From assembly GCF_001269425.1 (NCBI RefSeq), contig NZ_CP011787.1:496001-560000 (forward strand): a DNA stretch of 64,000 nt, read 5' to 3'. Below the pieces are notes generated by a model. It made no database searches. It was given only the letters and a program-made list of their open reading frames with translations, and was not told the origin of the DNA. The position numbers and the translations under genes were made by a program. The DNA is from Candidatus Palibaumannia cicadellinicola. GTDB taxonomy: Bacteria; Pseudomonadota; Gammaproteobacteria; Enterobacterales; Enterobacteriaceae. Of the stretch, positions 27,500 through 49,936 are shown piece after piece. Each line of letters opens with the position of its first letter. Positions within the stretch are counted from its first letter, which is position 1.

Positions 27500-28133
27500 A
27501 TGGTTCTCAGTAAACTGCAAATAGATTCTACGCTTGAATGGTTCCTTTCTCATTGCCATATTCATAAGTATCCATCTAAGAGTACTATAATTTATCAGGG
27601 TGAAAAAGCAGATACTTTATACTACTTAGTTAAAGGTTCAGTGTCTGTTATCATAAAGGATGAAGAAGGAAAAGAAATGATTCTTGCTTATCTAAATAAA
27701 GATAATTTTATTGGTGAGTTAGGATTATTTAAAGAAGGTCAGGAACGTAGCGCTTGGGTAAGAACAAAAACTGCTTGTGAAGTAGCTGAAATATCATATA
27801 AAAAATTTAGACAACTTATTCAAGTAAATCCAACTATTCTAATGCGTCTTGCATCACAGATTGCAAGTCGTTTACAAGTAACATCAGAGAAAGTAGGAAA
27901 TTTAGTTTTTTTAGATGTTACTGGACGTATTGCACAGACTTTACTAAATCTGACTAAACAGCCAGATGCAATGACTCATCCAGACGGTATGCAAATAAAA
28001 ATTACCCGCCAGGAAATAGGGCAGATTGTTGGATGTTCGCGGGAGACTGTTGGTAGAATTTTAAAAAATACTTGAAAATCAACATCTATTATCTGCTCAT
28101 GGTAAAACTATTGTTGTGTATGGTACTCGTTAG
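27500..28133 (+). CDS. crp: cAMP receptor protein CRP, frameshifted near its 3' end
   Basis: Global cAMP-dependent transcription regulator. From the ATG at 27500 the frame reads 189 residues almost identical to E. coli CRP, with the cyclic-nucleotide domain (GELGLFEEG-type loop, [16 protein letters not shown]) and the helix-turn-helix [22 protein letters not shown]. It then ends after two extra residues at the TGA at 28073-28075. One base out of frame the ancestral tail continues perfectly ([21 protein letters not shown], stop at 28131-28133). A run of six A at 28063-28068 is one base too long; five would restore 210 residues, the E. coli length. As read, the product loses the end of the recognition helix and the last strands. 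Function depends on slippage or on the base being a sequencing error. Confidence 0.9.
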
Positions 28134-28270
28134 TGTACCTAAATGAATATTGAATTTAAATACCATTTATGTTGTTTAAAAAACTTTACATTTTATTCTA
28201 ATAAATTTTTTTAGTAACTGATATGATTTTTTACTAATAATATTTTATTTATTAAAATAAACACATTGTA

Positions 28271-28290
28271 TTGCCATATCACTATGGCAA
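28271..28290. repeat. Perfect 8-bp stem with 4-base loop
   Basis: TTGCCATA and TATGGCAA flank the loop TCAC. It lies about 140 bases past the ancestral crp stop. No T-run follows, so it is not a canonical terminator; it could be an RNA 3'-end stem or a protein site. Confidence 0.45.
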
Positions 28291-28308
28291 ATAGCCATTA
28301 TTATTTAA

Positions 28309-28328
28309 TTTTGTTCCACTGAACAAAA
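28309..28328. repeat. Second perfect 8-bp stem with 4-base loop
   Basis: TTTTGTTC and GAACAAAA flank the loop CACT, 18 bases after the previous hairpin and of identical geometry. On either strand a run of four T or A is part of the stem, so a weak bidirectional terminator is possible. Confidence 0.4.
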
Positions 28329-28796
28329 ACTAAATGCTGTAACTTACAAATAATGTAAAATCATTGTTTGTAGGATCTAGTAATTTTTTGTACTAAATCA
28401 GCGAATTATTATTTGCTAAATAATGCTTTGCTATTGTGTTGAATAGATGATACTAATTATTATTAGTAATAATACAGTATATTAAGTGAATGTATTAATT
28501 GTTATCAACACTAATTTATTGATAATCTAATCTAAGAATTTTTCTAGTATATATAGGAAAATTATCAGCACAATAGCGAATAGTTGATATAACTTGCAAT
28601 TAGTGCTTAATCTTCTGTGAAGAAATTAGGTGAAATCACTAGTTGCTGATGTTCAAACCGTGGAATATATAACATTTTTATGTTAACATATCGTATTATC
28701 TCAACTTTTGCACCTAATTTAAAAAATTATTGATATAGGTTTAAAGTAAATAAACAACTTTCTAATAAAATATATTATATAATCAATTATATCTAT

Positions 28797-28813
28797 GTTA
28801 GTGAGGCACTAAC
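28797..28813. repeat. Perfect 7-bp stem with 3-base loop upstream of dnaB
   Basis: GTTAGTG and CACTAAC flank AGG, about 200 bases before dnaB. It might be in the dnaB leader. There is no T-run after it. Confidence 0.35.
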
Positions 28814-29011
28814 GTTAATCAATATGTTTCGCTAAAAGATAAGCTATTAGCTCAAGCTAATTAACAGTAATATACTTATAAAAAGACTTTTAGTAAAAAA
28901 AATATCATTAAAATATTAATACTGATCATATAATCTCTCTATCCTATTATAAGTTATAAGTCTATATATCTAATTTTAAATTAGAAAGCCAAATAATTAT
29001 TTAAAAACAAT

Positions 29012-30412
29012 ATGTCAGAAAAAAAAACGACTTATAAAGTAAATTTACCAATAGATATGAAGGTAGAGGCTTTAAAAATTCCACCACATTCTTTGGAAGC
29101 TGAACAGTCTGTACTAGGCGGCTTAATGCTAGATAATAAGCGGTGGGATAATGTTTCAGAACGTTTAACAACAAATGATTTCTTTAATAATCAGCACAGG
29201 TTAATTTTTAGAGAAATGCAGATTTTAATTGATATTAGTCAACCTATCGATCTTATTACTCTGGCCGAATCTTTAGAACAGAAAGGTCAGCTAGAAGCTG
29301 TTGGTGGTTTTGCTTATCTAGCTGAGTTATCTAAAAATACCCCTAGTGTAGCTAACATATCTGCTTACGCAGATATTGTCCGCGAACGTGCTGTAGTACG
29401 TGAAATGATTAATGTAGCTCATGAAATCGCAAATGCTGGATATAATCCACAGGGACGTAGTAGTGAATATTTGCTAGATTTAGCAGAATCTATGATATTT
29501 CAGATAGCTGAAAATAGGGCTCATAAAGATGAAGGTCCTAAAAGCATTGACTTTGTTTTAGAAAAGACTGTGGCTCATATTGAGCAGCTGTATAAAAAAC
29601 CAAATCATGGGATAACTGGAGTCTCTAGTGGTTATCTAGACCTAGATAAAAAAACAGCTGGACTACAAAAATCTGATTTGATCATAGTTGCAGCACGACC
29701 ATCAATGGGTAAAACAACTTTTGCTATGAATATATGTGAAAACGCTGCTATGACTGAGGAAAAGCCAGTACTAATTTTTAGCTTAGAAATGTCTGGTGAA
29801 CAGATAATGATACGTATGTTAGCTTCATTATCTCGTGTTGATCATACTAGTATCCGTACTGGTACGCTAAATGATGATGATTGGGCACGTATATCTAGTA
29901 CTATGGGTATTTTATTAGATAAGCGTAATCTGTTATATATTGATGACTCATCTGGTTTAACACCAACAGAAGTACGTTCAAGAGCTCGTCGTATTTTTCG
30001 TGAACATGATGGTTTAAGCCTAATTATGATTGATTATTTACAACTAATGCGTGTTCCAGCACTTTCTGATAACAGAACGCTAGAAATTGCAGAAATCTCA
30101 CGTTCGCTTAAAGCCTTAGCTAAGGAGCTACAAGTACCTGTATTAGCGTTGTCTCAGCTAAATAGAAGCCTAGAACAACGTGCTGATAAGCGACCTATTA
30201 ATTCAGACTTACGTGAATCCGGTTCTATAGAACAGGATGCTGATTTAATTATGTTTATCTATCGTGATGAATTGTATCATGATAATAGTGATATGAAGGG
30301 CATAGCAGAAATTATTATTGGGAAACAACGTAATGGTCCTATCGGTACTGTACGTTTAACTTTTAATGAGCAGTGGTCTAGATTTGATAATTATGCTGGT
30401 ATGTATGATTAA
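29012..30412 (+). CDS. dnaB: Replicative DNA helicase DnaB
   Basis: Hexameric 5'-3' helicase at the replication fork. The 466 residues (471 in E. coli) contain the N-terminal primase-interacting domain (PPHSLEAEQSVLGGLMLD) and the RecA-like domain with Walker A ARPSMGKTTFAMN near residue 232, Walker B LIMIDYLQLMR near 342, ALSQLNRSLEQRADKRP near 384 and DLRESGSIEQDADLIMFIYRDE near 403. It starts at the ATG at 29012 with no strong ribosome-binding site. qor and alr, which flank it in E. coli, are absent; a tRNA gene follows 34 bases later. No intein is present. Confidence 0.98.
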   Translation: MSEKKTTYKVNLPIDMKVEALKIPPHSLEAEQSVLGGLMLDNKRWDNVSERLTTNDFFNNQHRLIFREMQILIDISQPIDLITLAESLEQKGQLEAVGGFAYLAELSKNTPSVANISAYADIVRERAVVREMINVAHEIANAGYNPQGRSSEYLLDLAESMIFQIAENRAHKDEGPKSIDFVLEKTVAHIEQLYKKPNHGITGVSSGYLDLDKKTAGLQKSDLIIVAARPSMGKTTFAMNICENAAMTEEKPVLIFSLEMSGEQIMIRMLASLSRVDHTSIRTGTLNDDDWARISSTMGILLDKRNLLYIDDSSGLTPTEVRSRARRIFREHDGLSLIMIDYLQLMRVPALSDNRTLEIAEISRSLKALAKELQVPVLALSQLNRSLEQRADKRPINSDLRESGSIEQDADLIMFIYRDELYHDNSDMKGIAEIIIGKQRNGPIGTVRLTFNEQWSRFDNYAGMYD

Positions 30413-30446
30413 AATTATTAATATATATTAATAATTATTCAATTAT

Positions 30447-30519
30447 GTCTCCGTAGTTAAATTGGAAATAACAAGCTCCTCCTAAGAGCTAGTTACAGGT
30501 TCGATTCCTGTCGGAGATA
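30447..30519 (+). tRNA. argW: tRNA-Arg, anticodon CCU (reads AGG)
   Basis: A full cloverleaf can be folded: acceptor GTCTCCG/CGGAGAT (30447-30453 with 30512-30518, first pair G-U), D-stem GTTA/TAAC, anticodon stem AGCTC/GAGCT with loop CTCCTAA (anticodon CCT at 30481-30483), four-base variable loop and T-stem ACAGG/CCTGT with loop TTCGATT. The discriminator is A at 30519. The sequence resembles E. coli argW. The 3' CCA is not encoded (ACA follows), so it must be added by the CCA-adding enzyme. Confidence 0.92.
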
Positions 30520-30685
30520 ACAAACTAATTTAATACAAATATATAGAAAACATTAACTATTATATAATAATATATTGATAACTTTATTTTTTATAAAAAA
30601 TTTTACTTTATTTAATATAATATATTAAAAATTTAATTAAATTATTAATTTATTATTAAAATATATTTTTTTTACCTTATACCCC

Positions 30686-30714
30686 CTTGATGCTGTGCCG
30701 TGTGCCCCCAATCT
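30686..30714 (+). promoter_or_regulatory. Heat-shock (sigma-32) promoter of dnaK
   Basis: The -35 element CTTGATG (30686-30692, preceded by CCCC) and the -10 element CCCCAATCT (30706-30714) are separated by exactly 13 bases. This matches the sigma-32 consensus (CTTGAAA, 13-17 bases, CCCCATNT) and closely resembles the E. coli dnaK P1 promoter. It is a GC-rich island in very AT-rich surroundings, 85 bases before the dnaK start. It implies a working RpoH elsewhere in the genome. Confidence 0.88.
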
Positions 30715-30798
30715 TAATTGGCATCGAACGTTGTTAAATTTAGTAGCAAAATTAGGTTTACGATAACAATACATTTGACTTTTTGTGGAGATGTTTAG

Positions 30799-32694
30799 AT
30801 GGGAAAAATAATTGGCATTGACTTAGGGACAACCAACTCATGTATCGCTATTGTAGAAGGCACTAAACCTCGTGTACTAGAAAATAGTGAAGGAGATCGC
30901 ACAACTCCATCTATTATTGCTTATACTCAGGATGGTGAGATTCTAGTTGGCCAACCGGCTAAACGTCAGTCTGCTACCAACCCGCAAAATACCTTATTTG
31001 CTATCAAACGTTTAATTGGTCGCCGTTTCCAAGATGAAGAAGTGCAGCGTGATGTAAATATTATGCCTTATAAAATAATTTCTGCTGATAACGGTGATGC
31101 TTGGTTAGAAATTAAGGGCCAAAAAATAGCTCCTCCGCAAATATCAGCTGAAATTTTAAAAAAAATGAAAAAAACTGCAGAAGATTATCTAGGAGAATCA
31201 GTAAACGAAGCAGTCATTACTGTCCCAGCTTACTTTAATGATACACAGCGTCAAGCAACTAAAGACGCAGGTAGAATCGCTGGTCTAGAGGTAAAGCGTA
31301 TTATAAATGAACCTACAGCTGCAGCTCTTGCCTACGGGTTAGATAAGGAGGTAGGTAATCGTACTATTGCAGTATATGATCTTGGGGGCGGAACTTTCGA
31401 TATTTCTATTATTGAAATTGATGACGTGGATGGCGAAAAAACTTTCGAAGTATTAGCGACTAATGGTGATACACATTTGGGTGGTGAAGATTTTGATAGT
31501 AGATTAATTATTTATTTAGTAAATGAATTTAAAAAAGACCAAGGTATAGATTTGCGGAATGATCCACTAGCTATGCAGCGTTTAAAAGAAGCTGCTGAAA
31601 AAGCCAAAATAGAGCTATCGTCCGCACAGCAGACTGATGTAAATCTACCATATATAACTGCTGATGCTAATGGTCCTAAGCATATGAGTATTAAAGTAAC
31701 CCGTGCAAAACTTGAGTCTTTAGTAGAAGACTTAGTTCATCGTACTATGGATCCTTTGAAAGTTGCGTTACAAGATGCTGGGTTATCTATTTCCAAGATT
31801 AAAGATGTAATATTAGTTGGCGGTCAAACTCGTATGCCACTAGTACAGAAACAAGTTACAGAATTTTTTGGAAAAGAACCACGTAAAGATGTTAACCCAG
31901 ACGAAGCAGTTGCTATTGGAGCAGCTGTTCAAGGTGGTGTACTATCTGGTCATGTAAAAGATGTTCTATTACTTGATGTTACTCCTTTATCGCTTGGCAT
32001 AGAAACTATGGGTGGCGTCATGACGCCATTAATTACTAAAAATACTACTATTCCTACTAAACATAGCCAAGTTTTTTCTACTGCTGAAGATAATCAGTCT
32101 GCAGTTACCATTCATGTTCTACAGGGTGAACGTAAACGTGCAATAGATAATAAGTCACTAGGTCAGTTTAACTTAGATGGTATTGCACCTGCAATGCGTG
32201 GAATCCCTCAAATTGAGGTAACATTTGATATTGATGCAGACGGGATTTTGCATGTTTCAGCTAAGGATAAAAATAGTGGTAGAGAACAAAAAATTACGAT
32301 AAAAGCATCATCTGGTTTGAGTGAAGAAGAAATAAAAAATATGGTACAAGAGGCAGAAGCAAATGCAGAGTCAGATCGTAAATTTGAAGAGCTTGTACAT
32401 ACTCGTAACCAGGCTGATAATTTAATGCATAGTACTCGCAAACAATTAGAAGAATATAGTGATCAAATTACTAAAGAAGAAAAAAATGCTATTGAAGATG
32501 CAATTAATAGTTTAAATAACGCCTTGAAAGGTGAAAGTAAAGCTGATATAGAAAATAAAATGCAAAATTTGATCCAATTATCAAGTAATTTAATGAAATT
32601 AACGCAACAAACAAAAAAAGATAATAACGATCAAGCTAAGGCAGATAACAATGTAGTAGATGCTGAGTTCGAAGAAGTAAAAGATAAAAAATAA
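30799..32694 (+). CDS. dnaK: Chaperone DnaK (Hsp70)
   Basis: ATP-driven chaperone working with DnaJ and GrpE. The 631 residues (638 in E. coli) show the actin-like ATPase motifs [14 protein letters not shown] at the N-terminus, [14 protein letters not shown] near 170, [14 protein letters not shown] near 193 and [11 protein letters not shown] near 340. The substrate-binding domain starts at [20 protein letters not shown] near 390 and the lid is followed by the C-terminal EEVKDKK, the conserved acidic tail. It starts at ATG 30799 behind a sigma-32 promoter and is followed by dnaJ after 106 bases. Heavy DnaK/GroEL use is typical of endosymbionts. Confidence 0.98.
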
Positions 32695-32800
32695 AAAAAT
32701 ATACCCGAACAGGTTTAGTCCTCGCTGCTGTTATTTATAAGCTCGAGTATAAAAAAATCTTTGTTCGTGCAAGTAAGTATGTCGAGGACAAAAATACACT

Positions 32801-33934
32801 ATGGCGAAATCAGACTATTATCAGATTTTAGGAGTTTCTAAAAACGCAGATGAGCGTGAAATAAAAAAAGCCTATAAACGCCTAGCCATGAAATTCCATC
32901 CAGATAGGAACCAAGGTAATGCTGAAGCAGAAGTAAAATTTAAAGAGATCAAAGAAGCCTACGAAGTTTTAACTGACGAGCAAAAACGAGCTGCTTACGA
33001 TCAGTATGGTCATATGGCTTTTGAACAACAAAGTAGTAGTATGGGTGGGGGTACTGCTGACTTTAGCGATATTTTTGGAGAAGTTTTTGGCGATATATTT
33101 GGAGGAGGACGTCGTCAGCGTGCTAGTAGGGGATCAGATTTACGCTATAACATGGAACTTACTCTTGAAGAAGCAGTACGTGGAGTTACTCGTGAAATAC
33201 GTATCCCAGTTTTAGATAAGTGTGAAGTATGTTATGGGAGTGGTTCAAAACCAGGTACTTCATCAATAACTTGTTCTACGTGTAACGGAAAGGGTCAAGT
33301 ACAAATTAGGCAGGGTTTTTTTGCAGTACAACAAGGATGCCCTACTTGTAATGGACAAGGTAAAGTAGTAAAAGAACCTTGTATAAAATGTCATGGTAAA
33401 GGTCGAGTAAAAAAATATAAAACATTATCAGTAAAAATTCCTACAGGTGTTGATACTGGTGATCGAATTCGTTTATCAGGGGAAGGTGAAGCAGGTGAGT
33501 ATGGTGCTCAATCTGGTGATCTATATGTTGAGGTTAAGGTACTTAAGCATCCCATCTTTGGACGTGAAGAGAATAACTTATACTGTGAAGTGCCAATCAA
33601 CTTTTCCATGGCAGCATTAGGTGGGGAAATTGAAGTACCTACTATTGATGGTAGGATTAAATTGAAAATACCTGCTGAAACTCAGACAGGTAAAATTTTT
33701 AGAATGCGCGGCAAAGGAGTTAAATCGGTTCGTAGCGGTCATCAAGGTGATTTACTATGCCGCGTAGTAGTAGAAACTCCGGTTAAATTAAACGAATTAC
33801 AAAAACAGTTATTACGAGAACTAGGAGAAAGTTTTTGCGGACCTTGTGGTAATCAAAATAGTCCTCGTTTAAAAAATTTTCTGGATGGAGTAAAAAATTT
33901 TTTGATGATCTCACTAATTAAAAATAGTGATTAA
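32801..33934 (+). CDS. dnaJ: Co-chaperone DnaJ (Hsp40) with frameshifted C-terminal tail
   Basis: Delivers substrates to DnaK and stimulates its ATPase. Order of domains: J-domain (residues 1-70, with HPD in MKFHPDRNQ), Gly/Phe linker ([24 protein letters not shown]), four CXXCXGXG zinc motifs ([32 protein letters not shown]) and the C-terminal client domains. After DGVKNF the frame reads [10 protein letters not shown]. One base away it reads FFDDLTN and stops at 33919-33921, matching E. coli FFDDLTR. A T6 run at 33898-33903 is therefore one T short. Only the last 8 or so residues change, so function is probably kept. The altered tail brings the stop to 10 bases from convergent rpsT. Confidence 0.95.
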
Positions 33935-33944
33935 ATATATAAAT

Positions 33945-34205
33945 TTACATATTTTTAATTTTTGCAAAAAGATTAGCTTTATAACGTGCTGCTTTATTTT
34001 TATGAATTATACCTTTGCTTGCCTGACGGTCAACTATAGGTTGCATTGCATAAAAAGCTAACTGCGCAGCTTCTTTATCTCCATTAGTAATAGCAGTATT
34101 AACTTTTTTTACGAAAGTTCGTACCATAGAGCGTCTGCTTGCATTATACTGCCTAAGCTTTTCAGTTTGTACGATACGTTTTTTAGCTGACTTTGTATTT
34201 GCCAA
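33945..34205 (-). CDS. rpsT: 30S ribosomal protein S20
   Basis: Binds 16S rRNA in the body of the small subunit. The 86 residues (87 in E. coli) begin [12 protein letters not shown] and contain [15 protein letters not shown] and [24 protein letters not shown]. The start is TTG at 34205-34203, the same rare start used in E. coli rpsT, and AGGAG (34214-34218, minus strand) sits 8 bases upstream. It is convergent with dnaJ and divergent from ribF, exactly as in E. coli. Confidence 0.97.
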
Positions 34206-34361
34206 AATTTTATCTCCTAAAAATTTCTTAGCTATTTAATATATAATATTATTACCAAACAGTAATTAATATTATAATACTCTGCCTACTAAATTTCAAC
34301 GTAAATCGTAGTGTCACCTAAGCTATAATCTGCTTAGTTATACTGTATTGAGTATAATATT

Positions 34362-35309
34362 ATGGAGCTTATTCGCGGCATACATAATTTAAAGCCACGT
34401 CACTATGGTTGTGTACTGACAATTGGTAATTTTGATGGGTTTCATCGTGGACACCAGGCAATAATTTCAGAATTACAGGCTGAAGGTATTCGTCGTAGTT
34501 TACCTATAATGGTAATGATTTTCGAACCACAGCCACAGGAATATTTTTCTGGTACTAACGCCCAAGCGCGTCTAACACGTCTAAGAGATAAAGTAAAATA
34601 CTTAGCTGATGCTGGAGTAGATCATATATTATGTGTAGCATTCGATAAGAAATTTTCTTCTATTAGCGCTAATCAATTTTTATTGGATCTGATAGTAACT
34701 AAATTAGGAGTACGTTTTATTTGTGTTGGCGATGATTTTCGCTTTGGGACACAAAGAAATGGTAATTTTACTTTTCTAAAAAATACTGGTAGCCAAGTTG
34801 GTTTAGAGGTCATGCGTATCATCACCTATACAGAAGGTGGACAACGAATTAGTAGTACAGCTATCAGAACAGCATTATTGCAGGATCGTATTTCTGATGC
34901 AGAAATCCTGCTAGGTCATGTATATCGACTTTCAGGACGAGTGATATCTGGCGATGCACTTGGAAGAAAAATAGGTTTTCCTACAGTAAATTTATCTCTA
35001 AAAGGATTACCAGCTCCTTTAAATGGAGTTTATGCAGTAGAAGTATTAACTACTAATCATAAGTATCCATTAAGAGGAGTAGCAAACATAGGTACTCGTC
35101 CTACCGTTACCGGGAACGGGCCAAGTAAGCAACATATGGAAGTCCATTTGCTAGATGTAACATTAAACTTATATGGTTGTTATCTAGAAGTGTTCATACG
35201 CGCTAAAGTACGTAACGAGCAACGTTTTGCATCTATAGAAGAATTAAAGTTACAAATAGCGAATGATGTAGTAAAAACCCGTAATTATTTTGATATGGTA
35301 CAGTCTTAA
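34362..35309 (+). CDS. ribF: Bifunctional riboflavin kinase / FAD synthetase
   Basis: Converts riboflavin to FMN and then to FAD. The 315 residues (313 in E. coli) have an N-terminal nucleotidyltransferase domain with LTIGNFDGFHRGHQAI near residue 20 and GDDFRFGTQRNGNF near 127, then RISSTAIRTAL near 164, and a C-terminal kinase domain with GRKIGFPTVNL near 206 and GVANIGTRPTV near 245. It is divergent from rpsT and 35 bases ahead of ileS, the conserved ribF-ileS-lspA-ispH order. A TATAAT at 34353 is too close to the start to serve it. Confidence 0.97.
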   Translation: MELIRGIHNLKPRHYGCVLTIGNFDGFHRGHQAIISELQAEGIRRSLPIMVMIFEPQPQEYFSGTNAQARLTRLRDKVKYLADAGVDHILCVAFDKKFSSISANQFLLDLIVTKLGVRFICVGDDFRFGTQRNGNFTFLKNTGSQVGLEVMRIITYTEGGQRISSTAIRTALLQDRISDAEILLGHVYRLSGRVISGDALGRKIGFPTVNLSLKGLPAPLNGVYAVEVLTTNHKYPLRGVANIGTRPTVTGNGPSKQHMEVHLLDVTLNLYGCYLEVFIRAKVRNEQRFASIEELKLQIANDVVKTRNYFDMVQS

Positions 35310-35344
35310 CTACTAATAGTTAGTAATAATGAATCGAGAATATA

Positions 35345-38167
35345 ATGAATAATTATAAAAGTACTATTAATCTACCAAAAACTAAATTTTCTATGCGGGG
35401 TGATTTAGCTAATAGAGAACCTTTGATTATCAAACGTTGGTATAAAGAAGATCTATATAAAATCATTTGCCAAGCTACAAAAGGAAAAAAAACTTTTATT
35501 TTACATGATGGTCCACCATATGCGAACGGTAGGATTCATATCGGTCACTCTGTTAACAAAATTATTAAAGATATTATTATTAAGTCTAAAAGATTAATGG
35601 GCTATGACTCCAAATATTTGCCTGGTTGGGATTGCCATGGGCTACCTATTGAGCTTAAAGTAGAGCAAATGATTGGTAAGCCGAATGAAACAGTAAGCTG
35701 TTCTGATTTTATTGTTGCTTGCCGCAATTACGCTTATAAGCAGGTTGCCTGGCAAAAAAAAGAATTTATTCGTCTCGGCGTGCTTGGTGACTGGGAAAAC
35801 ATCTATCTAACAATGGATTTTACCACAGAAGCTAATATCATACGTACTCTTAGTAAAATTATAGAAAATGGTCACCTATATAAGGGTAATAAGCCTATAC
35901 ATTGGTGCATAGATTGCTGTTCTGCATTAGCAGAAGCCGAAGTAGAATATTACGACTATATATCAAACTCAATCAATGTTACTTTTGCGGCAACTAATGC
36001 ACCTGAGGTTGCTGCTAAGTTCGGAATTAATAATTTCTCACAGTCAGTTTACGTTGTTATTTGGACTACTACACCTTGGACTATACCAGCTAATAGAGCT
36101 ATATCAGTTCATCCAAATTGTTTTTATCAATTAGTAGAATTTAATGGTAAATGTATAATATTAGCAGAAAATTTAGTAAAAAATTTTATAAAACGTATAG
36201 GTGGTATAACTAACTGGAAAATACTTGGTAACTTAGTAAAAGGAAGCTTATTAGAATGGTTATGGTTTCGTCATCCATTTATGGAATTCGATATTCCAGT
36301 TATACTTAATAATAACGTTAAGCTAAATACTGGTACTGGCTTAGTACATACTTCTCCCGGTCATGGGCCAGAAGATTATATCATTGGTAGTAAGTACGGT
36401 TTGGAAATAGCAAATGTAGTTGGTACTGATGGATGCTATCTACCTGGAACATTTTCATTACTTGATGGAATATCGGTGTTTATTGGTAATAGCATCGTTA
36501 TTAATATACTAAAAAATAGTGGAACATTATTATATGCAGAACAACTAAAGCATAGTTATCCACATTGCTGGCGACATAAAACACCGCTAATATTCCGTAC
36601 TACACCACAGTGGTTTATTAGTATGGATAAACAAAATTTAAGTAAAAAGTCACTGCAAGAAATACAAAAAATAAAATGGATACCTAGCTGGAGTAAAGAA
36701 CGTATTGCTAATATGATTATCAATCGCCAAGACTGGTGTATTTCTCGTCAAAGAATTTGGGGTGTTCCTATGTCGTTGTTTGTGCATAAAGATACTAAAA
36801 AATTACACCCCAATACCTGTGAAATAATGGAAAAAGTCGCTAAGCTAGTTGAGAAAAATGGTATTCAGGCTTGGTGGAATTTAGATCAGTCCGAACTTTT
36901 AGGTGATGATGCATATAACTATATTAAAATAAATGATACATTAGATGTATGGTTTGATTCTGGTTCAACACACTCATCAGTAATTGATGCAAGACCTGAA
37001 TTTAACAGTAATCATATAGATGTATATTTAGAAGGAGCAGATCAGCATCGTGGCTGGTTTATGTCATCCTTAATAAGTTCAATGGCTATAAAAGGCAAGG
37101 CACCGTATCAACAAGTTATTACCCATGGTTTTACCGTAGATAGTAACGGGCGTAAAATGTCAAAATCTTTAGGCAACGTTATCAGCCCACAGCAGATAGT
37201 AGATACACTTGGCGCCGATATTTTACGTTTATGGGTAGCATCTACAGATTACACTGAGGAGATAGCAATTTCAAATGAAATACTAAAAAGTTCAGCTGAT
37301 ATCTATCGCCGTATTCGTAATACCGCTCGATTTCTATTAGCTAACCTAAATGGGTTTGATCCAGTAAACAATATTGTTAGTTATGATAAAATGATAGCAT
37401 TAGATAGATGGGCAATTAGTAGGGCAAAATTTGTTCAGGATGAAATCATAGCTGCTTATGAAAGTTATAACATTCATAATGTTGTGCAAAAAATTATACA
37501 TTTTTGTTCAATTGATATGGGATCATGCTATCTTGATATCATCAAAGATCGCCAATACACTACTAAATATGATAGTGTTGCTCGACGTAGCTGCCAAACA
37601 GCACTATTTCATATTATTGAAGCGCTAGTACGATGGATAGCTCCTATTATATCTTTTACCGCAGACGAAATTTGGGGCTTCATACCAGGACCTCGTTCAC
37701 AATATGTGTTTACTGAAGAATGGTATCAATACCTTTTAAAGCTAGAATCGACAGAAACAATGAATGATACTTACTGGGAAAGTATATTACATGTACGTAA
37801 CGAAGTCAATAAAGTTATCGAGCAGGCGCGTACTAATAAACTAATTGGTAGTTCTTTGGAAGCCAATGTAATACTGTACTCTGAACCAATTATGGCTATG
37901 CAACTAAATAAATTAGGCAATGAATTGCACTTTTTATTTATTACATCAGCAGCACAGGTAGTTGATTATACTAATGCTGGCGATAACGCACTTAATAGTG
38001 ATAGATTAAAAGGTCTAAAGATTACTATTAATAAGGCTACCGGAACAAAATGCCAGCGATGCTGGCATTTATCTAACGATATTGGACATAATAAAAAATA
38101 TCCTGATATTTGTAATCGTTGTATTATAAATATATATGGTCAAGGTGAAGAACGTAAGTTTCTCTAA
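35345..38167 (+). CDS. ileS: Isoleucyl-tRNA synthetase
   Basis: Charges tRNA-Ile. The 940 residues (938 in E. coli) show the class I motifs [17 protein letters not shown] near 58 and [10 protein letters not shown] near 602, the editing domain with [14 protein letters not shown] near 243, and [13 protein letters not shown] near 540. The C-terminal zinc-binding cysteines are in KCQRCW and ICNRCI, and the chain ends GEERKFL as in E. coli (GEKRKFA). It lies in the ribF-ileS-lspA-ispH run, 32 bases before lspA. Confidence 0.98.
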
Positions 38168-39720: not shown

Positions 39721-39749
39721 TTGCCATCGATGATCCAACTTGTTATAAT
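39721..39749 (+). promoter_or_regulatory. Probable sigma-70 promoter upstream of carA
   Basis: TTGCCA (39721-39726) and TATAAT (39744-39749) are separated by exactly 17 bases, near-consensus -35 and -10 elements. They lie in the 188-base ispH-carA spacer, about 100 bases upstream of the carA start. In AT-rich sequence TATAAT alone means little; the spacing and the -35 make this credible. Confidence 0.55.
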
Positions 39750-39791
39750 TAACATTCTTAATATGACGTTTATGGGTTATATTGCTACGTT

Positions 39792-39825
39792 AAATTAACC
39801 TTAATTCCGAAAATTAACCTTAATT
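39792..39825. repeat. 15-bp direct repeat in the carA leader
   Basis: AAATTAACCTTAATT occurs at 39792-39806 and again at 39811-39825, 19 bases apart centre to centre, between the promoter and the carA start. Enterobacterial carAB has paired arginine-repressor boxes here, but these copies do not fit that 18-bp consensus well. They may be an operator remnant or a slippage duplication. Confidence 0.5.
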
Positions 39826-39853
39826 TTAATCATTAGGTTTTTGGGAGGCTGTT

Positions 39854-41050
39854 TTGACCAGGTCAAAGTCAGCACTGTTAGTTCTAGCAAATGGAACTAA
39901 ATTTCATGGGAAAGCCATTGGAGCCGAAGGTACAACAGTGGGTGAAGTAGTTTTTAATACGTCTATCACTGGTTATCAAGAAATTATTACTGATCCTTCT
40001 TATTTTCATCAAATTGTTACGCTGACTTATCCTCATATTGGTAATACTGGGACTAATCAAATTGATAATGAATCCTTAAGTGTGCAAGCTAAAGGTTTAG
40101 TTATTCGTAATTTACCGCTAATGTCTAGTAACTACCGTAGTACTATGCAGCTATCAGAATACTTAATAAAAAGAAATATTGTTGGAATATCAGAAATAGA
40201 TACTCGTAAGTTAACGCGAATTTTACGTGATGAAGGGACACAAAATGGTTGCATTATTGTAGGTGATCTGGTAAATGCTGAGCTAGCTTTACGTCAAGCT
40301 AGTAAATTCCCTGGTTTAAATGGCATAGATTTAGCTAAAGAAGTAAGTACCAAGGTCCAATATAGTTGGACTAAGGGTAGTTTTGGTAATAACCTAACAG
40401 GTAGATTATTATACTCATCAGTACAGGCTGCTGCGGATGCTACTTTACCATATCATGTTGTAGTTTATGATTATGGGACTAAACTAAATATAATGCGCAT
40501 ATTGGTAGATCGTGGCTGTACACTTACTGTTGTGCCAGCTCAAACTACGGCTGAGACTGTATTATCGATGAATCCTGAAGGAATTGTACTAACTAATGGA
40601 CCAGGTGATCCAGCGCCATGCACATATGCTATTACTGCTATTAAAACGTTACTAAACACTACTGCTATTCCTATATTTGGTATTTGTCTTGGTCATCAAT
40701 TACTAGCTCTTGCTAGTGGTGCTACAACTAAAAAAATGAAATGTGGCCATCATGGTAATAATCATCCTGTAAAGAATTTAGTCTCTGGTAAGGTAATGAT
40801 TACTTCTCAAAACCATAATTTTACTGTTGACGAAAATAATTTACCAGAAATACTAAAAATTACTCATATATCTCTTTTCGACGGTACTATTCAAGGCTTA
40901 CATCGTACAGATAAGCCTGCATTTAGTTTTCAGGGTCATCCAGAAGCAAGCCCAGGACCAAATGATAGTGAATCACTGTTTGATTATTTTATTCAATTAA
41001 TTAGAACTTATCGTTCTCAGCTTACGCAGCATAACATAACACATAAGTAA
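39854..41050 (+). CDS. carA: Carbamoyl-phosphate synthase small subunit
   Basis: Glutamine amidotransferase subunit that supplies ammonia to CarB for carbamoyl phosphate, the precursor of arginine and pyrimidines. The 398 residues contain the N-terminal domain ([29 protein letters not shown]) and the class I amidotransferase triad: Cys in [15 protein letters not shown] near 279 and His and Glu in [13 protein letters not shown] near 361. The start is TTG at 39854 with GGGAGG at 39843-39848; E. coli carA also starts with TTG. It is longer than the 382-residue E. coli protein because of small insertions. carB follows by 15 bases. Confidence 0.97.
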
Positions 41051-41065
41051 GAAGAGAAGATCTAC

Positions 41066-44000
41066 ATGCCAAAACGTACAGATATAGAAAGCATACTTAT
41101 TATAGGTTCAGGTCCAATTGTTATTGGTCAGGCCTGTGAATTTGATTACTCAGGTGTACAAGCTTGTAAAGCACTAAGAGAGGAGAGTTACCGAATAATA
41201 TTAGTAAATTCTAATCCTGCTTCAATAATGACTGACCCAGATATAGCTCATGCTACTTATATTGAACCTATTGATTGGACAGTAGTACGTAAGATTATTG
41301 AAAAAGAGCGACCTGATGCAATTCTTCCAACTATGGGCGGACAAACAGCACTAAATTGTGCTTTAGATCTTTACCGTCAAGGCGTGCTCACAGAGTTTGG
41401 AGTAGAAATGATAGGTGCTACAGCTAATGCTATAGAGCAGTCGGAAGATCGTCAACTGTTTGAAAAAGCAATTAAAAAAATAGGTTTAAATACACCACGT
41501 TCAGGTATTGCTAGTAATTTTCAAGAAGCACTAGCTGTAGTTGCTACAGTTGGTTTTCCTTGCATTATACGTTCATCTTTTACATTAGGTGGTACAGGAA
41601 GCGGGATTGCTTACAACATAAAAGATTTAAAAGAAATTTTCAACCATGGACTAGGACTAGATAGTTCTAATAACTGTCAACTTATGATAGAAGAATCACT
41701 AATAGGTTGGAAAGAATATGAAATGGAAGTTGTACGAGATTATAAAGATAATTGTATTATCGTTTGTTCAATTGAAAATATTGATCCTATGGGTATTCAT
41801 ACCGGAGATTCTATTACTGTTGCGCCAGCGCAGACACTTACTGATAAAGAATATCAAATGATGCGTAATGCTGCTATTGCAATTTTACGTGAAATTGGTG
41901 TAGAAACTGGTGGTTCTAATGTACAATTTGCTGTTAATCCTGATAACGGACAACTAATAATTATAGAAATGAATCCACGTGTATCACGATCTTCTGCTTT
42001 AGCTTCTAAAGCTACAGGATTTCCAATAGCTAAAATAGCAGCTAAATTAGCGATAGGTTATCATCTTGATGAGCTTATGAATAGTATTACAGGTAGCCTT
42101 ACACCTGCTTCATTTGAGCCTACTATAGACTATGTAGTAACAAAAATTCCAAGATTTAACTTCGATAAATTTTCAGGTACCAACAATCGTCTGACAACAC
42201 AAATGAAATCTGTTGGTGAAGTTATGGCTATAGGACGGACACAACAAGAGTCGCTACAAAAAGCATTACGCAGCCTAGAAGTAGATGCCACAGGTTTTGA
42301 TCCTAAAGTAAAATTAGAAGATCCAGAAGCATTAAATATCATACACTATGAGTTACAAAACGCAGGATGCGAACGTATTTGGTTTGTTGCTGACGCATTC
42401 CGCGCTGGAATGTCAATTGATAATATTTTTCTTCTTACTAAGATTGATCGCTGGTTCTTAGTGCAAATTGAAGAACTAATAAAATTAGAAAATCATTTAT
42501 CAAACATCGGAATTACTGTCTTGAATCCTTATTATCTCCGTAAACTAAAAAGAAAAGGATTTTCTGATGCACGTATTGCAATGCTAGTTGGTGTAAAGGA
42601 AGAAGACATTCGTAACTTACGAGAAAAGTATAACTTATATCCAGTATATAAGAGGGTTGATACTTGCGCTGCTGAATTTGCTACAAATACTGCATATATG
42701 TATTCTACTTATGATGATGAGTGTGAATCGCATCCATCTAATTATGGTAAAAAAATTATTGTATTAGGTGGTGGACCGAATCGTATTGGCCAAGGCATTG
42801 AATTTGACTATTGCTGCGTACATGCTTTACTAGTATTACGTGAAGAAGGTTACCAACCTATTATGGTTAACTGTAATCCTGAAACTGTTTCTACAGATTA
42901 TGATATTTCAGATAGACTTTATCTTGAGCCTGTCTCCTTAGAGAATATATTAGACATTATTAGAATAGAACAACCTGATGGCATGATCATCCAGTTTGGT
43001 GGACAAACCCCGCTAAAATTAGCGCACTTGCTAGAAGCAGCTGGGGTACCAATAATTGGAACTCAACCTAAAGCCATAGAACTTGCTGAAAATAGAGAAT
43101 TATTTCAGAAAATGGTAACTACCCTTGGTTTTAAACAGCCTATCAATGCTACTGTTACTAATATTGATATGGCTGTAGAGAAAGCAGCTATCATAGGTTA
43201 TCCACTAATGGTACGACCATCTTATGTTCTAGGTGGTAGATCCATGAAAATTATTTATAATAAAATAGATTTATTATTATCTTTAAATAATGCATTTAGT
43301 ATTTCTGATTGTGAAACACCAGTATTATTAGAAGAATTTATTGAACATGCAACAGAAATTGATGTAGATGCTATTTGCGACGGAAACAAAGTATTTATAT
43401 GTGGGATGATGGAACATATTGAGCATGCTGGTATACATTCAGGAGACTCAGCTTGTTTGCTACCACCATATACACTTAACAGTGATATTCAAGATCATAT
43501 GCGCCGTCAGGTAAAAAAATTAGCTTTAGAGCTAAATGTTATCGGATTGATGAATGTACAGTTTGCTGTTAAAAATAATGATGTATACTTAATTGAGGTT
43601 AACCCACGTGCATCTCGTACAGTACCTTTTGTATCTAAAGCAATAGGAATAGCTTTAGCTAAAGTTGCTACTAGAGTTATAGTGGGAAAATCACTAATCC
43701 AGCAGGGGATAACAAATGAGATTATCCCACCTTATTTTTCTGTAAAAGAAGTAGTGCTTCCATTCAATAAATTTCCTGGTATTGATCCTATCCTAGGACC
43801 AGAAATGCGATCAACTGGTGAAGTAATGGGATTTGGTAAAACTTTAGCGGAAGCCTTAGCTAAGGCTATGTTAGGAGTAGGTAAGCAATATCAAATAAAA
43901 ACAATTGGTAGAGTTCTTCTTTTATTTAGTGAAATAAATCAAGAGCAAGTAGTTAATTTATCTCTTCAACTATTAAATCATGGCTTAATATTAGATGTAA

Positions 44001-44323
44001 CGGAAAATATAGCATTGATCCTTATTAAGGAATATGGTATTAATGCTTGTAAAGTCAATGTAGTAAATAATAACACTAAAATTTTTAGTGAAGTTCAAGA
44101 TAACATTAAAAATGGAAGATATAGTTATATTATAGTTATGACTACAATAAATAATAAACATATTAATTTGTTTAAATTCATTATTAGTCTTGCTATAAAA
44201 TATAAAGTATATTATGATACCACTATTAATGGTGCTTTTGCTACAGCTATGTCACTTAACGCTGATGCAACAGCACAAGTGATTTCAATACAAGAAATGC
44301 ACTCAACAATAAAAATTTATTAA
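41066..44323 (+). CDS. carB: Carbamoyl-phosphate synthase large subunit
   Basis: Makes carbamoyl phosphate from bicarbonate, ammonia and two ATP, in a heterodimer with CarA. The 1085 residues (1073 in E. coli) show the two homologous ATP-grasp halves: the first with [19 protein letters not shown] near 13, [10 protein letters not shown] near 90 and [23 protein letters not shown] near 300; the second with [19 protein letters not shown] near 568, [11 protein letters not shown] near 641 and [18 protein letters not shown] near 848. The C-terminal allosteric domain is more diverged. It forms the carAB operon with carA. Confidence 0.98.
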
Positions 44324-44366
44324 TAAATAATCAATAAATTATAAAATAAGTAGTAACTAATTTTAT

Positions 44367-44861
44367 ATGATTATTAGCTTAATTGCGGCGCTAACTTCCG
44401 ATAATATTATCGGAATTAACAATACTATCCCTTGGCATTTATCTAAAGATTTAATATGGTTTAAAAAACATACTTATAATAAACCAGTAATAATGGGTCG
44501 TAAAACTTTTGACTCTATTAAAAAACCTTTATATGGTAGACGTAATATCGTATTAAGCCGTAAGGTTATAACAAAACCTACAATTATTAGCAGCGTTCAT
44601 TGGGTAAATAATTCTATTCAGGCACTAGCTGCTGCTGGTAACGTATCGGAGGTAATGGTTATTGGTGGTGCTCAAGTATACAATATTTTTATCAATCAAG
44701 CTAAAAAACTTTATCTAACCCATATTAATATTAAAGTAGATGGCGATACTTTTTTTCCTAATTATCAACATGATCCATGGCGAGTAACATTCCGTGAATG
44801 CCATGAAGCTAACATAAATATAAATTCTCCTAGCTACTGCTTCGAAATTCTTGAAAGATAA
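44367..44861 (+). CDS. folA: Dihydrofolate reductase
   Basis: Reduces dihydrofolate to tetrahydrofolate with NADPH, closing the cycle with ThyA. The 164 residues (159 in E. coli) carry MIISLIAALTSDNIIGINNTIPWHL with the substrate-binding region, KPVIMGRKTFDSI near 45, RRNIVLSRK near 61 and VIGGAQVYNIF near 97. The active-site acid is in DLIWFKKHT. It lies 43 bases after carB and is convergent with apaH 35 bases downstream; the E. coli kefC genes between carB and folA are gone. Confidence 0.97.
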   Translation: MIISLIAALTSDNIIGINNTIPWHLSKDLIWFKKHTYNKPVIMGRKTFDSIKKPLYGRRNIVLSRKVITKPTIISSVHWVNNSIQALAAAGNVSEVMVIGGAQVYNIFINQAKKLYLTHINIKVDGDTFFPNYQHDPWRVTFRECHEANININSPSYCFEILER

Positions 44862-44896
44862 ATAGTTTTTTGTTAGCGTTTAATATTTATTAGTAT

Positions 44897-45730
44897 TTAT
44901 TTAGTACTTTTACTTGTTGTAGCAGGTATCCTAGTAAATTTTTTATTTTCCCAGCATATTAAAGTTAATTCTCCACCCCAACAGCAACCAGTATCTAAGC
45001 AATAAAATCCTTCTGGTGTACCTTTTCCCATTAGCGAAGCCCAATGACCAAATACTATACTATAGTTTTCAGAAATAATCTGATTAGGTATGGTAAACCA
45101 TGGACGTAGCGGTTCTTGATTTTTATCAGGCATGTTTTTGCATGTAAGATCAAGTGTGCCATTCGGAAAACAGTAACGCATGCGGGTAAAAACGTTAGTA
45201 ATAAATTTTAGCCGTGCTATACCACTTAGCTCCTGACTCCAGTAATTAGGAATAATTATATCCCTAGTATTAAATAATAACTGGTAGCTATTGCTTTTAA
45301 GTAAATTTTCTACTTCAAGTGCGCATTTAATAGCTGTATTTAGGTTCCATTGCGGAGTAATTCCTGCATGAACCATAACTAATTTTTTATGGTGATCTAC
45401 TTGTAATACTGGTTGATAACGTAGCCAATTAATTAGATCATCAACATCTGATGCTTCTAATACCAGTTTAAGTTTAGTAATATCTTTTATATTATTAACT
45501 AACCCAGAATAAACAGCTATTAAATATAAATCGTGGTTACCTAGTACAATACGTACGCTATTACCTAACTTACGTATCATACGTAATACCTCTAATGAAC
45601 CTGGTCCACGTGCTACGATATCTCCTGTTAGCCAAATAGTATCAATTAATGGATCGAAATTTACTTTATCTATAATTTTCTGTAGCTCATCATAGCAACC
45701 GTGAATATCACCTATTAAATAAGTAGACAT
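44897..45730 (-). CDS. apaH: Bis(5'-nucleosyl)-tetraphosphatase, symmetrical
   Basis: Hydrolyses Ap4A to two ADP, and can remove Np4 caps from RNA. The 277 residues (280 in E. coli) have the calcineurin-like metallophosphatase motifs [10 protein letters not shown] near residue 7, [12 protein letters not shown] near 34, VLGNHDLYL near 61 and VHAGITPQW near 120, and [25 protein letters not shown] near the C-terminus. In E. coli the order is apaH-apaG-rsmA; here apaG is missing, leaving a 141-base gap to rsmA. Confidence 0.97.
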
Positions 45731-45871
45731 AATTTATTAATTAATTTATTAAAATTGTTAATGAAAAAAACTTTTTGTTTGGGAATAATATTGTTTACTA
45801 TCAGCTTGCCAGTATTAACGAAAATAATAAATATAATTTTTGTATATAAAATACTTATTACTAATAAGTTA

Positions 45872-46669
45872 TCAACTTAGTAACTGAGCTAAACGGCAAT
45901 ACTGTTCAACACTAAGGTTTTCTGCACGCTGAGTTGCTATAATCCCATTTTGTAATAACTGTACTACACTAAATACACTACCTAAACTATTACAAATCAT
46001 CTTACGACGCTGATTAAACGCAAGACGGGTTAAGTTATATAACTGATTAATATCATTTACTTTATAGGGTAGTTTGGCATAAGGTACTAGTCGTACTATT
46101 GCAGAGTTTACCTTAGGAATAGGGTAAAAAGAATTAGGCGGGACATCTAGCATTATATGTATATTACAATAGTATTGTGCTATTACGCTTAGTCTACAGT
46201 AAGCTTTATTATTAGGTTTAGCTATAAGACGGTTGGCTACTTCTTTCTGTAACATAAAGTGCATATCCGAAATAATATTAATATAACTAAATAATAAAAA
46301 TATTAGCGATGTAGCAATATTATAAGGTAAATTACCAAAAATCCGCAAAGGATGACCAAGATATTGTGACAACTCAGTAAATTGAACCTTTCTTACATCC
46401 TTATTTAAAATATTAAGTTTATGCTTTATAACATTATTACTAGCTAATATATCAGCTAAATTACGATCAATTTCAATCACTGTCATAGTATCAACATACT
46501 TTGCTACCTGATAAGTAAGTGCGCCTAAACCTGGTCCTATCTCAACTAGAGCCTGCCCCTTTTTAGGATCGATTGCATCAACAATTAATTTAATAATTTT
46601 TTTATCTTTTAGAAAGTATTGACCAAAACATTGCTGTGCAACATGGCCCTGATAACACGTATTATGCAT
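45872..46669 (-). CDS. rsmA: 16S rRNA (A1518/A1519) dimethyltransferase
   Basis: Dimethylates two adjacent adenosines in the 3' end helix of 16S rRNA during 30S maturation (also called KsgA). The 265 residues (273 in E. coli) contain the SAM-binding [12 protein letters not shown] near residue 38, [13 protein letters not shown] near 60 and the catalytic [10 protein letters not shown] near 113, followed by [11 protein letters not shown]. The N-terminal motif reads FGQYFL instead of the usual FGQNFL, a change next to the SAM pocket worth noting. pdxA, between rsmA and surA in E. coli, is absent. Confidence 0.96.
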
Positions 46670-46789
46670 TGACCATCCATATATAATATTATATTAAAAA
46701 ATTATAAAGCTACCTGCTTATTAAGCTAGTTACAGTTTTACCCAATACTTTGTATTTTAGTACAGTGAAACTATTATTGAATATAAATA

Positions 46790-48105
46790 TTAATTATTAT
46801 CAATAATTTTTACATATACTGATGAACGTTGTTTTTTTATCAATTGTTTCAATGCTTCAGATAACTTACGTTTATATAATAAACGATAAGCATGTTCTTT
46901 TTCTTGTGCTCTAAGTTGGTAAACCTTACGTTTATTATGTAGCTTAATTAAGTGCCAGCCATTTGAGAAGTAAATAGGTTCACTTAGTTCTCCATCTTTA
47001 AGAGATAGTAATAAACCACGAAAAATAGGATTGAAGGTATTCAATTTATTCCAACCAAGATCACCACCCTGGTGAGCAGAACAAACATCTGTTGATATTT
47101 GCTTAGCAGCTGCACTGAAGCTAATATTTCCACTCTTAATATTCTGTGCTATATTACGTAATTTATAGTATGCTTTCTCATTATCATTATTTTTACTACC
47201 TGAGGTACTTATAACAATATGGCTAGCATATACCTCTGTTATAGGTAAAACCATTTTTTGTTCTTTACTACGTATGTCGTTTACTTTAAAAATATGAAAA
47301 CCTCTCTCTAAGTATATAGGCCCTATTATACTGCCTTTTTGCGCTTCTGTGAGATATTCAGCAACAATAGGAGATAATTCTTTATTTTTTATCCAAAAAA
47401 AGTTATGTGAATATAATATATTATCTTTAGTAGAATATTTTTTTGCTAACTGCGAAAAATCTTCTTTTTGGTTGCTGGCTGACATAATTAATATAGCTAG
47501 TTCTTTTGCTTTATTAATTTTATATTGTGAAGGTTTATCTACAATAGGTATTACAATATGACTAAGATGAAACTCTTTGCTGTTACTGCTTTTTGCAAAT
47601 ATAATTTTATTAGTCATTGACTCAACTTCATTTTGTAAAATATTTACACGACTACGAACAGCCATCTTACATACTTCAGTCATAAATAAATAATTACGAA
47701 GCTGCGTACGATAAGTATCGTAGCTTATACCACTTTTTATCAAAAATCTACGAAACTCAGATATAGATAAATTATTTTTATTAGCTATCTCTAAAATAAT
47801 TTGATTTAACTGATCATCAGAAATAAAAAAATTTAATTTTTTTTCATTTTTTAAAACAATTTTATGTTTAATTACATGATCTATTAGATAATTATCTATT
47901 ATATAATGATGCAATAGAATATCTTCTAATCTTGGATTATTTCCAGGTGTGGTATTAATTTTTATTTTTTAATCAATATATTTATATCACTATCTAAAAT
48001 TATGCTATTATCAATAATAGCAGCAACTTTATTGACTACCTTTTGAGCCCTTACTGGACCTGCGCACAGTAAGATGCAGAGTATCAGTTTTATCCAGATT
48101 TTCAT
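46790..48105 (-). pseudogene. surA: Periplasmic chaperone/PPIase SurA, split by a 1-base frameshift
   Basis: Delivers unfolded porins to BAM. From an ATG at 48105-48103 the minus strand reads a signal peptide (MKIWIKLILCILLCAGPVRA) and QKVVNKVAAIIDNSIILDSDI, matching E. coli, then stops at TAA 47962-47964. The rest of the protein continues one base out of frame from about 47968 to the stop at 46790, with the parvulin-type domains (FHLSHIVIPI near residue 180, and VYASHIVIST ... GGDLGW). The two frames are both open only at 47965-47968, inside a run of six A (coding strand), so one A is missing there. Repaired, the protein has 438 residues (428 in E. coli). A TTG-initiated fragment could be made alone but would lack the signal peptide. 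lptD, upstream in E. coli, is absent. Confidence 0.88.
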
Positions 48106-48270
48106 TAATATATTATTTAACTGAAATAAGTATATATCATACTATAGCTACTACCTAATCATAATATATAAAAATATTATACTTTAATGAGTAAAAACCT
48201 CACTGCTATCATTATCCTTAAAAACTAAATGCTAGAAATGTACTTTCTATAAACTAGAACTTAATCAAAT

Positions 48271-48603
48271 ATGTATAATATTTACATTTTTAAATATAAA
48301 TTAATTGTTTATTGTATTTTATTATTTATGACTACTAGTTGCTCTATCTATAAAACAGTCATACCCCATAATTACCTTAATCAAGGTAATTACTTCAATA
48401 AAACTGAAGTAAATAAGCTATATATTGGTATGACCAAACAAAAGGTTCTTTCTGTTCTTGGAACACCAATGTTAACAGATCAATTTGGATATAATACTTG
48501 GTATTATATTTTACGCCAGGAACATCGTTATGAATCAATTTATCAAAAAAAATTAATACTAACTTTTAACAAAAATGACATTTTAATAAAAATAACTATA
48601 TAA
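48271..48603 (+). CDS. bamE: Outer membrane lipoprotein BamE (SmpA)
   Basis: Small lipoprotein of the BAM complex that supports BamA-BamD. The 110 residues (113 in E. coli) start with a signal peptide ending in a lipobox-like FMTTSC, with the cysteine to be lipidated near residue 24. The SmpA/OmlA domain follows: YLNQGNYFNKTEVNKLYIGMTKQKVLSVLGTPMLTDQFG aligns well, with NTWYYILRQEH after it. It is separated from its BAM partner bamA by 40 kb. It is divergent from surA and convergent with ratB. Confidence 0.93.
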   Translation: MYNIYIFKYKLIVYCILLFMTTSCSIYKTVIPHNYLNQGNYFNKTEVNKLYIGMTKQKVLSVLGTPMLTDQFGYNTWYYILRQEHRYESIYQKKLILTFNKNDILIKITI

Positions 48604-48681
48604 TGAATTACTTTATATGAGTTAGTATGTTGCAAACAAAACTTAAACATAAATAAATATTACTCAACTAATATGAGAAAT

Positions 48682-48954
48682 TTATGCACGTATCCTCCGT
48701 CTTTCTTTAGGATCAATAAGCAATGGCCGATAAATTTCTACACGATCACCATCGTGCAATATTTCTTTAAGTGATATTATGCGGCTAAAAATACCTATTT
48801 TATTAACGTTAATAACATCAATTTCTGACTGTAATGAAAGAATTCCTGAAGCTTCAATAGCTTGTGCTGCTGTACTGCCCTCAGGCAGTAAGATCGATAA
48901 TATATATTGATACTCAGGTAAAGCATAAACTACATTAACACTAATATTAGCCAC
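48682..48954 (-). CDS. ratB: RnfH-family protein RatB
   Basis: Small ubiquitin-like-fold protein of the RnfH/YfjF family, function unsettled. The 90 residues align over their length with E. coli YfjF (96): VVYALPEYQYILSI, ASGILSLQSEIDV, NKIGIFSRIISL and HDGDRVEIYRPLLIDPKERRRIRA. It overlaps the end of ratA by 8 bases, so the two are translationally coupled, the usual ratA-ratB pairing next to smpB. Keeping such an obscure pair in a reduced genome suggests a real role. Confidence 0.92.
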   Translation of the reverse strand: MANISVNVVYALPEYQYILSILLPEGSTAAQAIEASGILSLQSEIDVINVNKIGIFSRIISLKEILHDGDRVEIYRPLLIDPKERRRIRA

Positions 48955-49384
48955 TATAAACTTCCTTTGCCCGCATAGTAAAGGCCATTATCATGCTATT
49001 AACTATTTCTGTAAATATTTGTCCTAGTGCTATATTAATTAGCTGATTTTTTAGTTCAAAATTTAGATATAACTCTACTTTACTTAATTTTTCATTTAAT
49101 GGAATAAAATGCCAGTATCCAAAAAATGATCTAAATGGACCTTCAACAAGATCCATCATAATACTTTTATTTTTTTTCATAATATTATGAGTAGTGAATG
49201 ATTTACTAATACCTGCCTTATAAATATTCATTTCAGCAGTCAACTCACTACTATCATACTGCTTTAGTATTTTACTGGTAATACATCCAGGGATAAATTC
49301 ATGATAGGCATTAATATCATTAACCAAAGCGAACATCTGCTCTACACTATATGGAACTAGCACTGATCTAATGATTATAGGCAT
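48947..49384 (-). CDS. ratA: Ribosome-associated START-domain protein RatA
   Basis: Member of the polyketide-cyclase/START family (YfjG, PasT). In E. coli it is reported to bind 50S subunits and hinder subunit joining, and eukaryotic relatives (Coq10) support ubiquinone function. The 145 residues contain VPYSVEQMFALVNDINAYHEFIPGC at the N-terminus and GPFRSFFGYWHFIP in the middle, with the C-terminal helix ending MRAKEVYSG. It overlaps ratB and is divergent from smpB with 76 bases between the starts. Confidence 0.92.
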   Translation of the reverse strand: MPIIIRSVLVPYSVEQMFALVNDINAYHEFIPGCITSKILKQYDSSELTAEMNIYKAGISKSFTTHNIMKKNKSIMMDLVEGPFRSFFGYWHFIPLNEKLSKVELYLNFELKNQLINIALGQIFTEIVNSMIMAFTMRAKEVYSG

Positions 49385-49460
49385 AATTTTTATTATAATG
49401 TTATATTAATTATTATTTTAACATGTCTATGTTAGATAGATACAAAAATACCTTATTTCT

Positions 49461-49936
49461 ATGAATAAAAAATATAAATCAAGCTTAACTACCATTGAAC
49501 AAAATAAGCATGTTAGCCACGAATTTTTTATTGAAAAAAAATTTGAAGCTGGACTGTCTTTACAAGGATGGGAAGTACAAGCACTACGTGCCAGAAGAGT
49601 AAATATCAGTAATAGTTATGTGTTATTAAATAATAACGAAGCTTTTCTTTTTGGCGCAACTTTCCAACCACTTATAGTTGCTTCATCTAATATAGTTTGT
49701 TATCCTACTCGTTCTAGAAAGTTACTTTTAAATAGAAGTGAATTAGATTTCATATTTGGACAAGTTAATCGTAAAGGTTATACAATTGTTCCATTATCCA
49801 TTTACTGGAAACAACACTTAGCTAAGCTTCAGATTGGCGTAGCTAAAGGTAAAAAAAATATGATAAACGTTATTGTATTAAAAAACGTGAATGGATCATA
49901 GATCAAGCACGTATTACAAAATATATTAAATATTAA
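49461..49936 (+). CDS. smpB: SsrA-binding protein SmpB, frameshifted in an A8 run
   Basis: Binds tmRNA and places it in the ribosomal A site during trans-translation. The first frame gives 133 SmpB residues ([62 protein letters not shown]) then unrelated residues to TAG at 49899-49901. One base away the ancestral tail continues: [20 protein letters not shown], stop at 49934-49936, like E. coli HDKRSDIKEREWQVDKARI. A run of eight A at 49851-49858 is one short; nine restore 158 residues (160 in E. coli). The C-terminal tail acts as the codon-anticodon mimic in the decoding centre, so the unshifted product would probably be inactive. ssrA follows 29 bases later. Confidence 0.9.

Follow-up and report, generated by a model that had tools for sequence, protein, structure and literature searches.

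Frame breaks at A/T runs near the ends of crp, dnaJ, surA and smpB in a Baumannia genome, most likely leftover 454 homopolymer-length errors

Four genes with one frame break each

The window is a 64,000-base stretch of DNA covering bases 496001-560000 of a 632,672-base chromosome, whose assembly also holds a second contig, of 3,465 bases. Among named relatives, the closest is Candidatus Palibaumannia cicadellinicola strain Gra UN1924. We detected four genes in the window whose reading frame breaks at a short run of A or T, and list them here in window coordinates together with the neighboring tmRNA gene, which encodes the partner of SmpB and is given as context only:

27500..28130, plus strand: crp (cAMP receptor protein), with A6 at 28063-28068
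32801..33934, plus strand: dnaJ, with A6 at 33892-33897 adjoining T6 at 33898-33903
46790..48105, minus strand: surA, with A6 at 47970-47965
49461..49936, plus strand: smpB, with A8 at 49851-49858
49966..50351, plus strand: tmRNA gene, intact by ARAGORN

The crp open reading frame (27500-28075) ends early past its A6 run, giving 191 amino acids where the crp of relatives has 210, and the last 21 ancestral residues are encoded in a different frame, as far as about 28133. Similarly, the 146-aa smpB frame (49461-49901) diverges past A8, with the ancestral C-terminal end in another frame. In surA it is the beginning that is displaced: the first ~50 residues, from a start at about 48105, are out of frame with a 374-aa open reading frame at 46790-47914. 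The CRP (346 bits), DnaJ (588 bits), and SmpB (157 bits) matches all exceed their NCBIfam cut-offs; the best NCBIfam match of the surA frame is SurA at 343 bits, below the 394-bit cut-off, with model positions 1-68 unmatched.

When aligned, with tolerance for frame changes, to two sister genomes, G001 and G002, each of the four genes showed exactly one break, and no further breaks appeared among the 46 G001 and 47 G002 frames compared in the window. The breaks are confirmed as real features of the deposited sequence. They had been proposed in the first-pass annotation, which placed them at runs of six to eight A or T, three of them one base short and one a base long; all of these runs are present where it put them, and three of the four breaks are indeed a missing base. 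Two of four candidate-frameshift flags were ignored because the short frames they marked lie antisense to genuine genes. The alignment of ribF (34362-35309) runs a few residues beyond the stop, but this gene was not taken as broken, since its match to the family extends to residue 312 of 315.

The dnaJ case needs a correction. Its T6, the run originally named, is six bases long in the window and in all three relatives compared, so we rejected it as the altered run; against the same three relatives, the length difference lies in the adjoining A6 or at its edge. The gene does carry one break that puts its last residues out of frame, and these are the only part affected: the full-length open reading frame is kept and is not shortened (377 aa, versus 370 and 372 in relatives). 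Among the 80 relatives' loci listed, the match to the window protein stops at residue 368, and the tail motif continues in 76 of them, with the same tail in three of the remaining four.

Residues on the small side of each break still match the sister genomes. We counted identities with G001 and G002 and, over about the same stretches, between G001 and G002 themselves:

crp: 15/21 with G001, 17/21 with G002; G001 versus G002, 12/21
dnaJ: 8/9 with G001, 8/9 with G002; G001 versus G002, 8/9
surA: 17/39 with G001, 15/45 with G002; G001 versus G002, 18/41
smpB: 13/25 with G001, 15/23 with G002; G001 versus G002, 15/25

Because the two sets of values are similar, the stretches past the breaks are about as well conserved as they are between intact relatives, in line with what had been claimed for them. 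Chance is an unlikely explanation for the open frame past the break in surA (41 codons, P = 0.003-0.013), and in crp it is disfavored only modestly (21 codons, P = 0.05-0.11). The comparison with related symbiont genomes that had been suggested as a check showed G001 and G002 in frame at all four genes. A fragmented Graphocephala strain (G003) was in frame at crp and dnaJ, and its assembly gave no match to surA or smpB.

The window also holds a lesion of a different kind. The N-terminal part of rnr (RNase R; 55181-55355, minus strand) contains three in-frame stops (TAG, TAA, TAA) with no change of frame. It is still recognizable beside the intact G001 and G002 copies, and a 695-aa open reading frame from 55181 keeps the rest; this region looks like real decay rather than homopolymer error. 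In the fragmented Graphocephala strain, the mutS match (G003:C7:961-1524) has one in-frame TAA.

Distribution of breaks across the genome and its relatives

Across 304 kb of this genome, set against 210 frames of G001, and in the sister genomes by the same procedure, we counted single breaks beside an A/T run of at least six in otherwise long open genes. Seven of the 210 frames were broken, at runs of six to nine: the four genes of the window and three with end-proximal breaks outside it, given here in chromosome coordinates:

near 61788: ubiF, at A8
near 65214: ptsI, at A8
near 266165: rnb, at A9

The ptsI break was also shown by G002 frames; in ubiF and rnb these frames yielded no break row. 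In five of the seven cases a base is missing. Among 195 kept genes, breaks occurred at 3 of 404 runs of six, 0 of 182 of seven, 3 of 51 of eight, 1 of 25 of nine, and 0 of 3 of ten.

Each sister genome had one such break. In G001 it was found in 1 of 250 frames when G002 frames were compared (rplA, A6, near 560905) and was recovered with 192 frames of this genome; in G002 it was found in 1 of 259 when G001 frames were compared (ruvX, A10, near 493337) and was recovered with 142 frames of this genome. The excess here over the sisters (7/210 versus 2/509) has a Fisher P of 0.003, or of 0.018 once the two breaks of G002 that lie next to G5 and G7 are included; the P values are approximate because the comparisons share genes. 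A T9 break in secG, near 611749, is possibly an eighth case and would bring the Fisher P to 0.001. We left its row out: the break falls mid-gene, at residue 62 of a 110-aa frame whose SecG match covers residues 4-71, and the remainder is poorly conserved.

Several other rows were dropped. In this genome, these were six single breaks with no A/T run of at least five nearby (41486, 44663, 45843, 173826, 388180, and 389575); frames broken twice, at 464012/464248 (a match to two G001 frames), 269148/269023, and 270389/270342; two frames broken four or five times; and an rplA row at 449808, since frames of both this genome and G002 put that break in G001. In G001 we dropped breaks with no run beside them, one frame broken twice, a weak row (541086, gain 13) close to A6, and, at 547803 (A10), a row arising from the broken ruvX frame of G002. 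In G002 we dropped single breaks without an A/T run, including one beside G7 (45012) and one beside G5 (552095), two two-break frames, an smpB row due to the broken frame of this genome, and an rplA row due to the G001 frame. The G001 counterpart of the G002 frame with a break beside G7 near 45012 is 285 aa long.

The first-pass annotation had drawn attention to the clustering of the four breaks within 22 kb. A hot spot limited to that stretch is rejected by the like breaks in ubiF, ptsI, and rnb, and what remains is a mild cluster, with four of the seven breaks in the window (P = 0.04 by share of sequence and 0.009 by the rate outside, both post hoc).

All seven breaks lie no more than 52 residues from a gene end, within the outer 16.3% of the gene. 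Against a random choice among each gene's own runs, this end bias has P = 0.002 for the seven breaks and P = 0.06 for the window's four alone; adding the mid-gene secG break as an eighth raises the former to 0.023. Our test gives mid-gene breaks a higher score, so their absence does not stem from a failure to detect them. This is the pattern that hand correction of visible breaks would leave, and selection against harmful truncation predicts it too, so the end bias does not decide between them alone.

Sequencing history and origin of the breaks

The window sequence is almost certainly that of the published B-GSS assembly, the Baumannia cicadellinicola of the sharpshooter Draeculacephala minerva, whose circular chromosome has the identical length, 632,672 bp, and is accompanied by a 3.5-kb plasmid (CP011787-8; PMC4758232). 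According to the genome paper, DNA from the pooled bacteriomes of 15 D. minerva insects was sequenced by 454 GS FLX and assembled with Newbler at an average coverage of 8.7x, Sanger sequencing being restricted to gaps and larger indels; 68 predicted genes were out of frame and were then "manually adjusted" because 454 introduces homopolymer-length errors (PMC4758232). A comparison of 454 with Illumina reports that 454 homopolymer errors favor A/T and longer runs, and that at least 20% of genes may be frameshifted in low-GC genomes sequenced by 454 (PMC3277595). In a study of the GS 20, an instrument earlier than the GS FLX, more than 97% of errors were linked to homopolymers, the mean run length being 5.8 bases, and 79% of the homopolymer errors were insertions (PMC1564139).

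We conclude from the assembly that the breaks in crp, dnaJ, surA, and smpB are most likely leftover 454 homopolymer-length errors in the B-GSS assembly (probability about 0.9). At 8.7x, the lengths of A/T runs would have been miscounted in many genes; the authors restored by hand the frame of the 68 that were visibly out of frame, and breaks near gene ends, which keep an almost full-length open reading frame, would have passed as normal genes and escaped correction. The miscount at these particular runs and the reason it was missed are what we infer. The genome is a low-depth one unpolished by another platform, each break sits at a homopolymer (A6, A6/T6, A6, and A8), and such breaks are in excess over the sisters. 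By rough scaling, seven breaks in 304 kb would mean some 15 in the whole genome, a share of 18% when those 15 are added to the 68 adjusted genes; of the runs of at least six, 25% fall in the outer tenth at each gene end. The breaks resemble 454 errors described for AT-rich assemblies in that a single base breaks the frame at an A/T run of about 5-9, many genes of low-GC genomes are hit, and relatives are in frame (PMC3277595; PMC1564139). They differ in that most errors of this genome had been corrected manually prior to deposition and in that missing bases outnumber extra ones (5/7), whereas insertions are reported to predominate in the GS 20 study (PMC1564139). The conserved residues past the breaks fit 454 error, and they are also expected of a recent or rescued frameshift.

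The breaks could instead be, though we consider it quite improbable, real recent frameshifts, or polymorphisms among the pooled insects, that are tolerated so close to a gene end and mark a step toward gene loss. The end-proximal position of all seven breaks agrees with this, as do the pooling of 15 insects and the faster substitution and greater gene loss described for B-GSS, which is also reported to have lost ung and mutM (PMC4758232); each sister, too, has an A/T-run break (rplA in G001, ruvX in G002). Fast evolution and the loss of ung and mutM thus leave some room for real indels in this genome. Loss of mismatch repair as their source was set aside, as both mutS and mutL are open, and this, together with the in-frame state of the sisters at all four genes, favors leftover 454 error. 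Real frameshifts would moreover cost surA its start and N-terminal region, no further decay is seen past the breaks, and the breaks of this kind in 68 genes were judged to be 454 error by the genome's own authors (PMC4758232).

The first-pass annotation had held homopolymer error in the assembly and rescue by RNA polymerase slippage to be equally possible, and it is the former that is strongly supported by the 454 platform, the 8.7x coverage, and the 68 adjusted genes. Under rescue, real frameshifts at A/T runs would yield mixed mRNA, part of it in frame, as in Buchnera and Blochmannia, and this case shares with those genes an AT-rich insect symbiont, a single-base break at an A/T run, and a conserved tail (PMC3017870; PMC5009743). 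The likeness goes little further: the runs here are 6, 6, 6, and 8, while the symbiont cases are described in a review at long poly(A) runs (PMC5009743), and a cause in sequencing is documented and already sufficient. In a reporter study of E. coli RNA polymerase, no slippage was detectable below 7 T or 8 A, a threshold that smpB reaches and the six-base runs of crp, dnaJ, and surA do not, although mRNA sequencing with the same polymerase gave 0.82% insertions at one T6 (PMC6260861). Homopolymer frameshifts in Blochmannia vafer are reported to be conserved between species in some, though not all, cases (PMC3017870); here no break is common to G001 or G002 in any of the four genes, or to G003 in crp and dnaJ. 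We therefore regard slippage rescue as very improbable indeed. Ribosomal -1 frameshifting uses slippery motifs of the form X XXY YYZ, and two such heptamers lie in the reading frame, T TTT TTG in dnaJ and A AAA AAT in smpB. The break in crp would require the opposite shift and no relative has a shifted frame, which makes this explanation barely credible.

Consequences for the deposited genome

There is a decidedly slim chance that the frameshift in smpB, at its A8, and perhaps that in dnaJ really exist in B-GSS, with slippage during transcription or translation decoding them. If so, the tmRNA rescue system would itself rely on decoding errors, and further cases of this kind may be concealed among the 68 other genes that were adjusted by hand. 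If the breaks are leftover 454 errors, as we favor, crp, dnaJ, surA, and smpB are most likely intact in the living bacterium. The run lengths of the 68 hand-adjusted genes may follow the reading frame and not the reads, and runs near gene ends in the deposit probably still carry miscounts, so that the lengths of crp, surA, smpB, ptsI, rnb, and ubiF in the deposit are suspect. As it stands, the deposited B-GSS genome is unusable for studies of homopolymer frameshifts or slippage.
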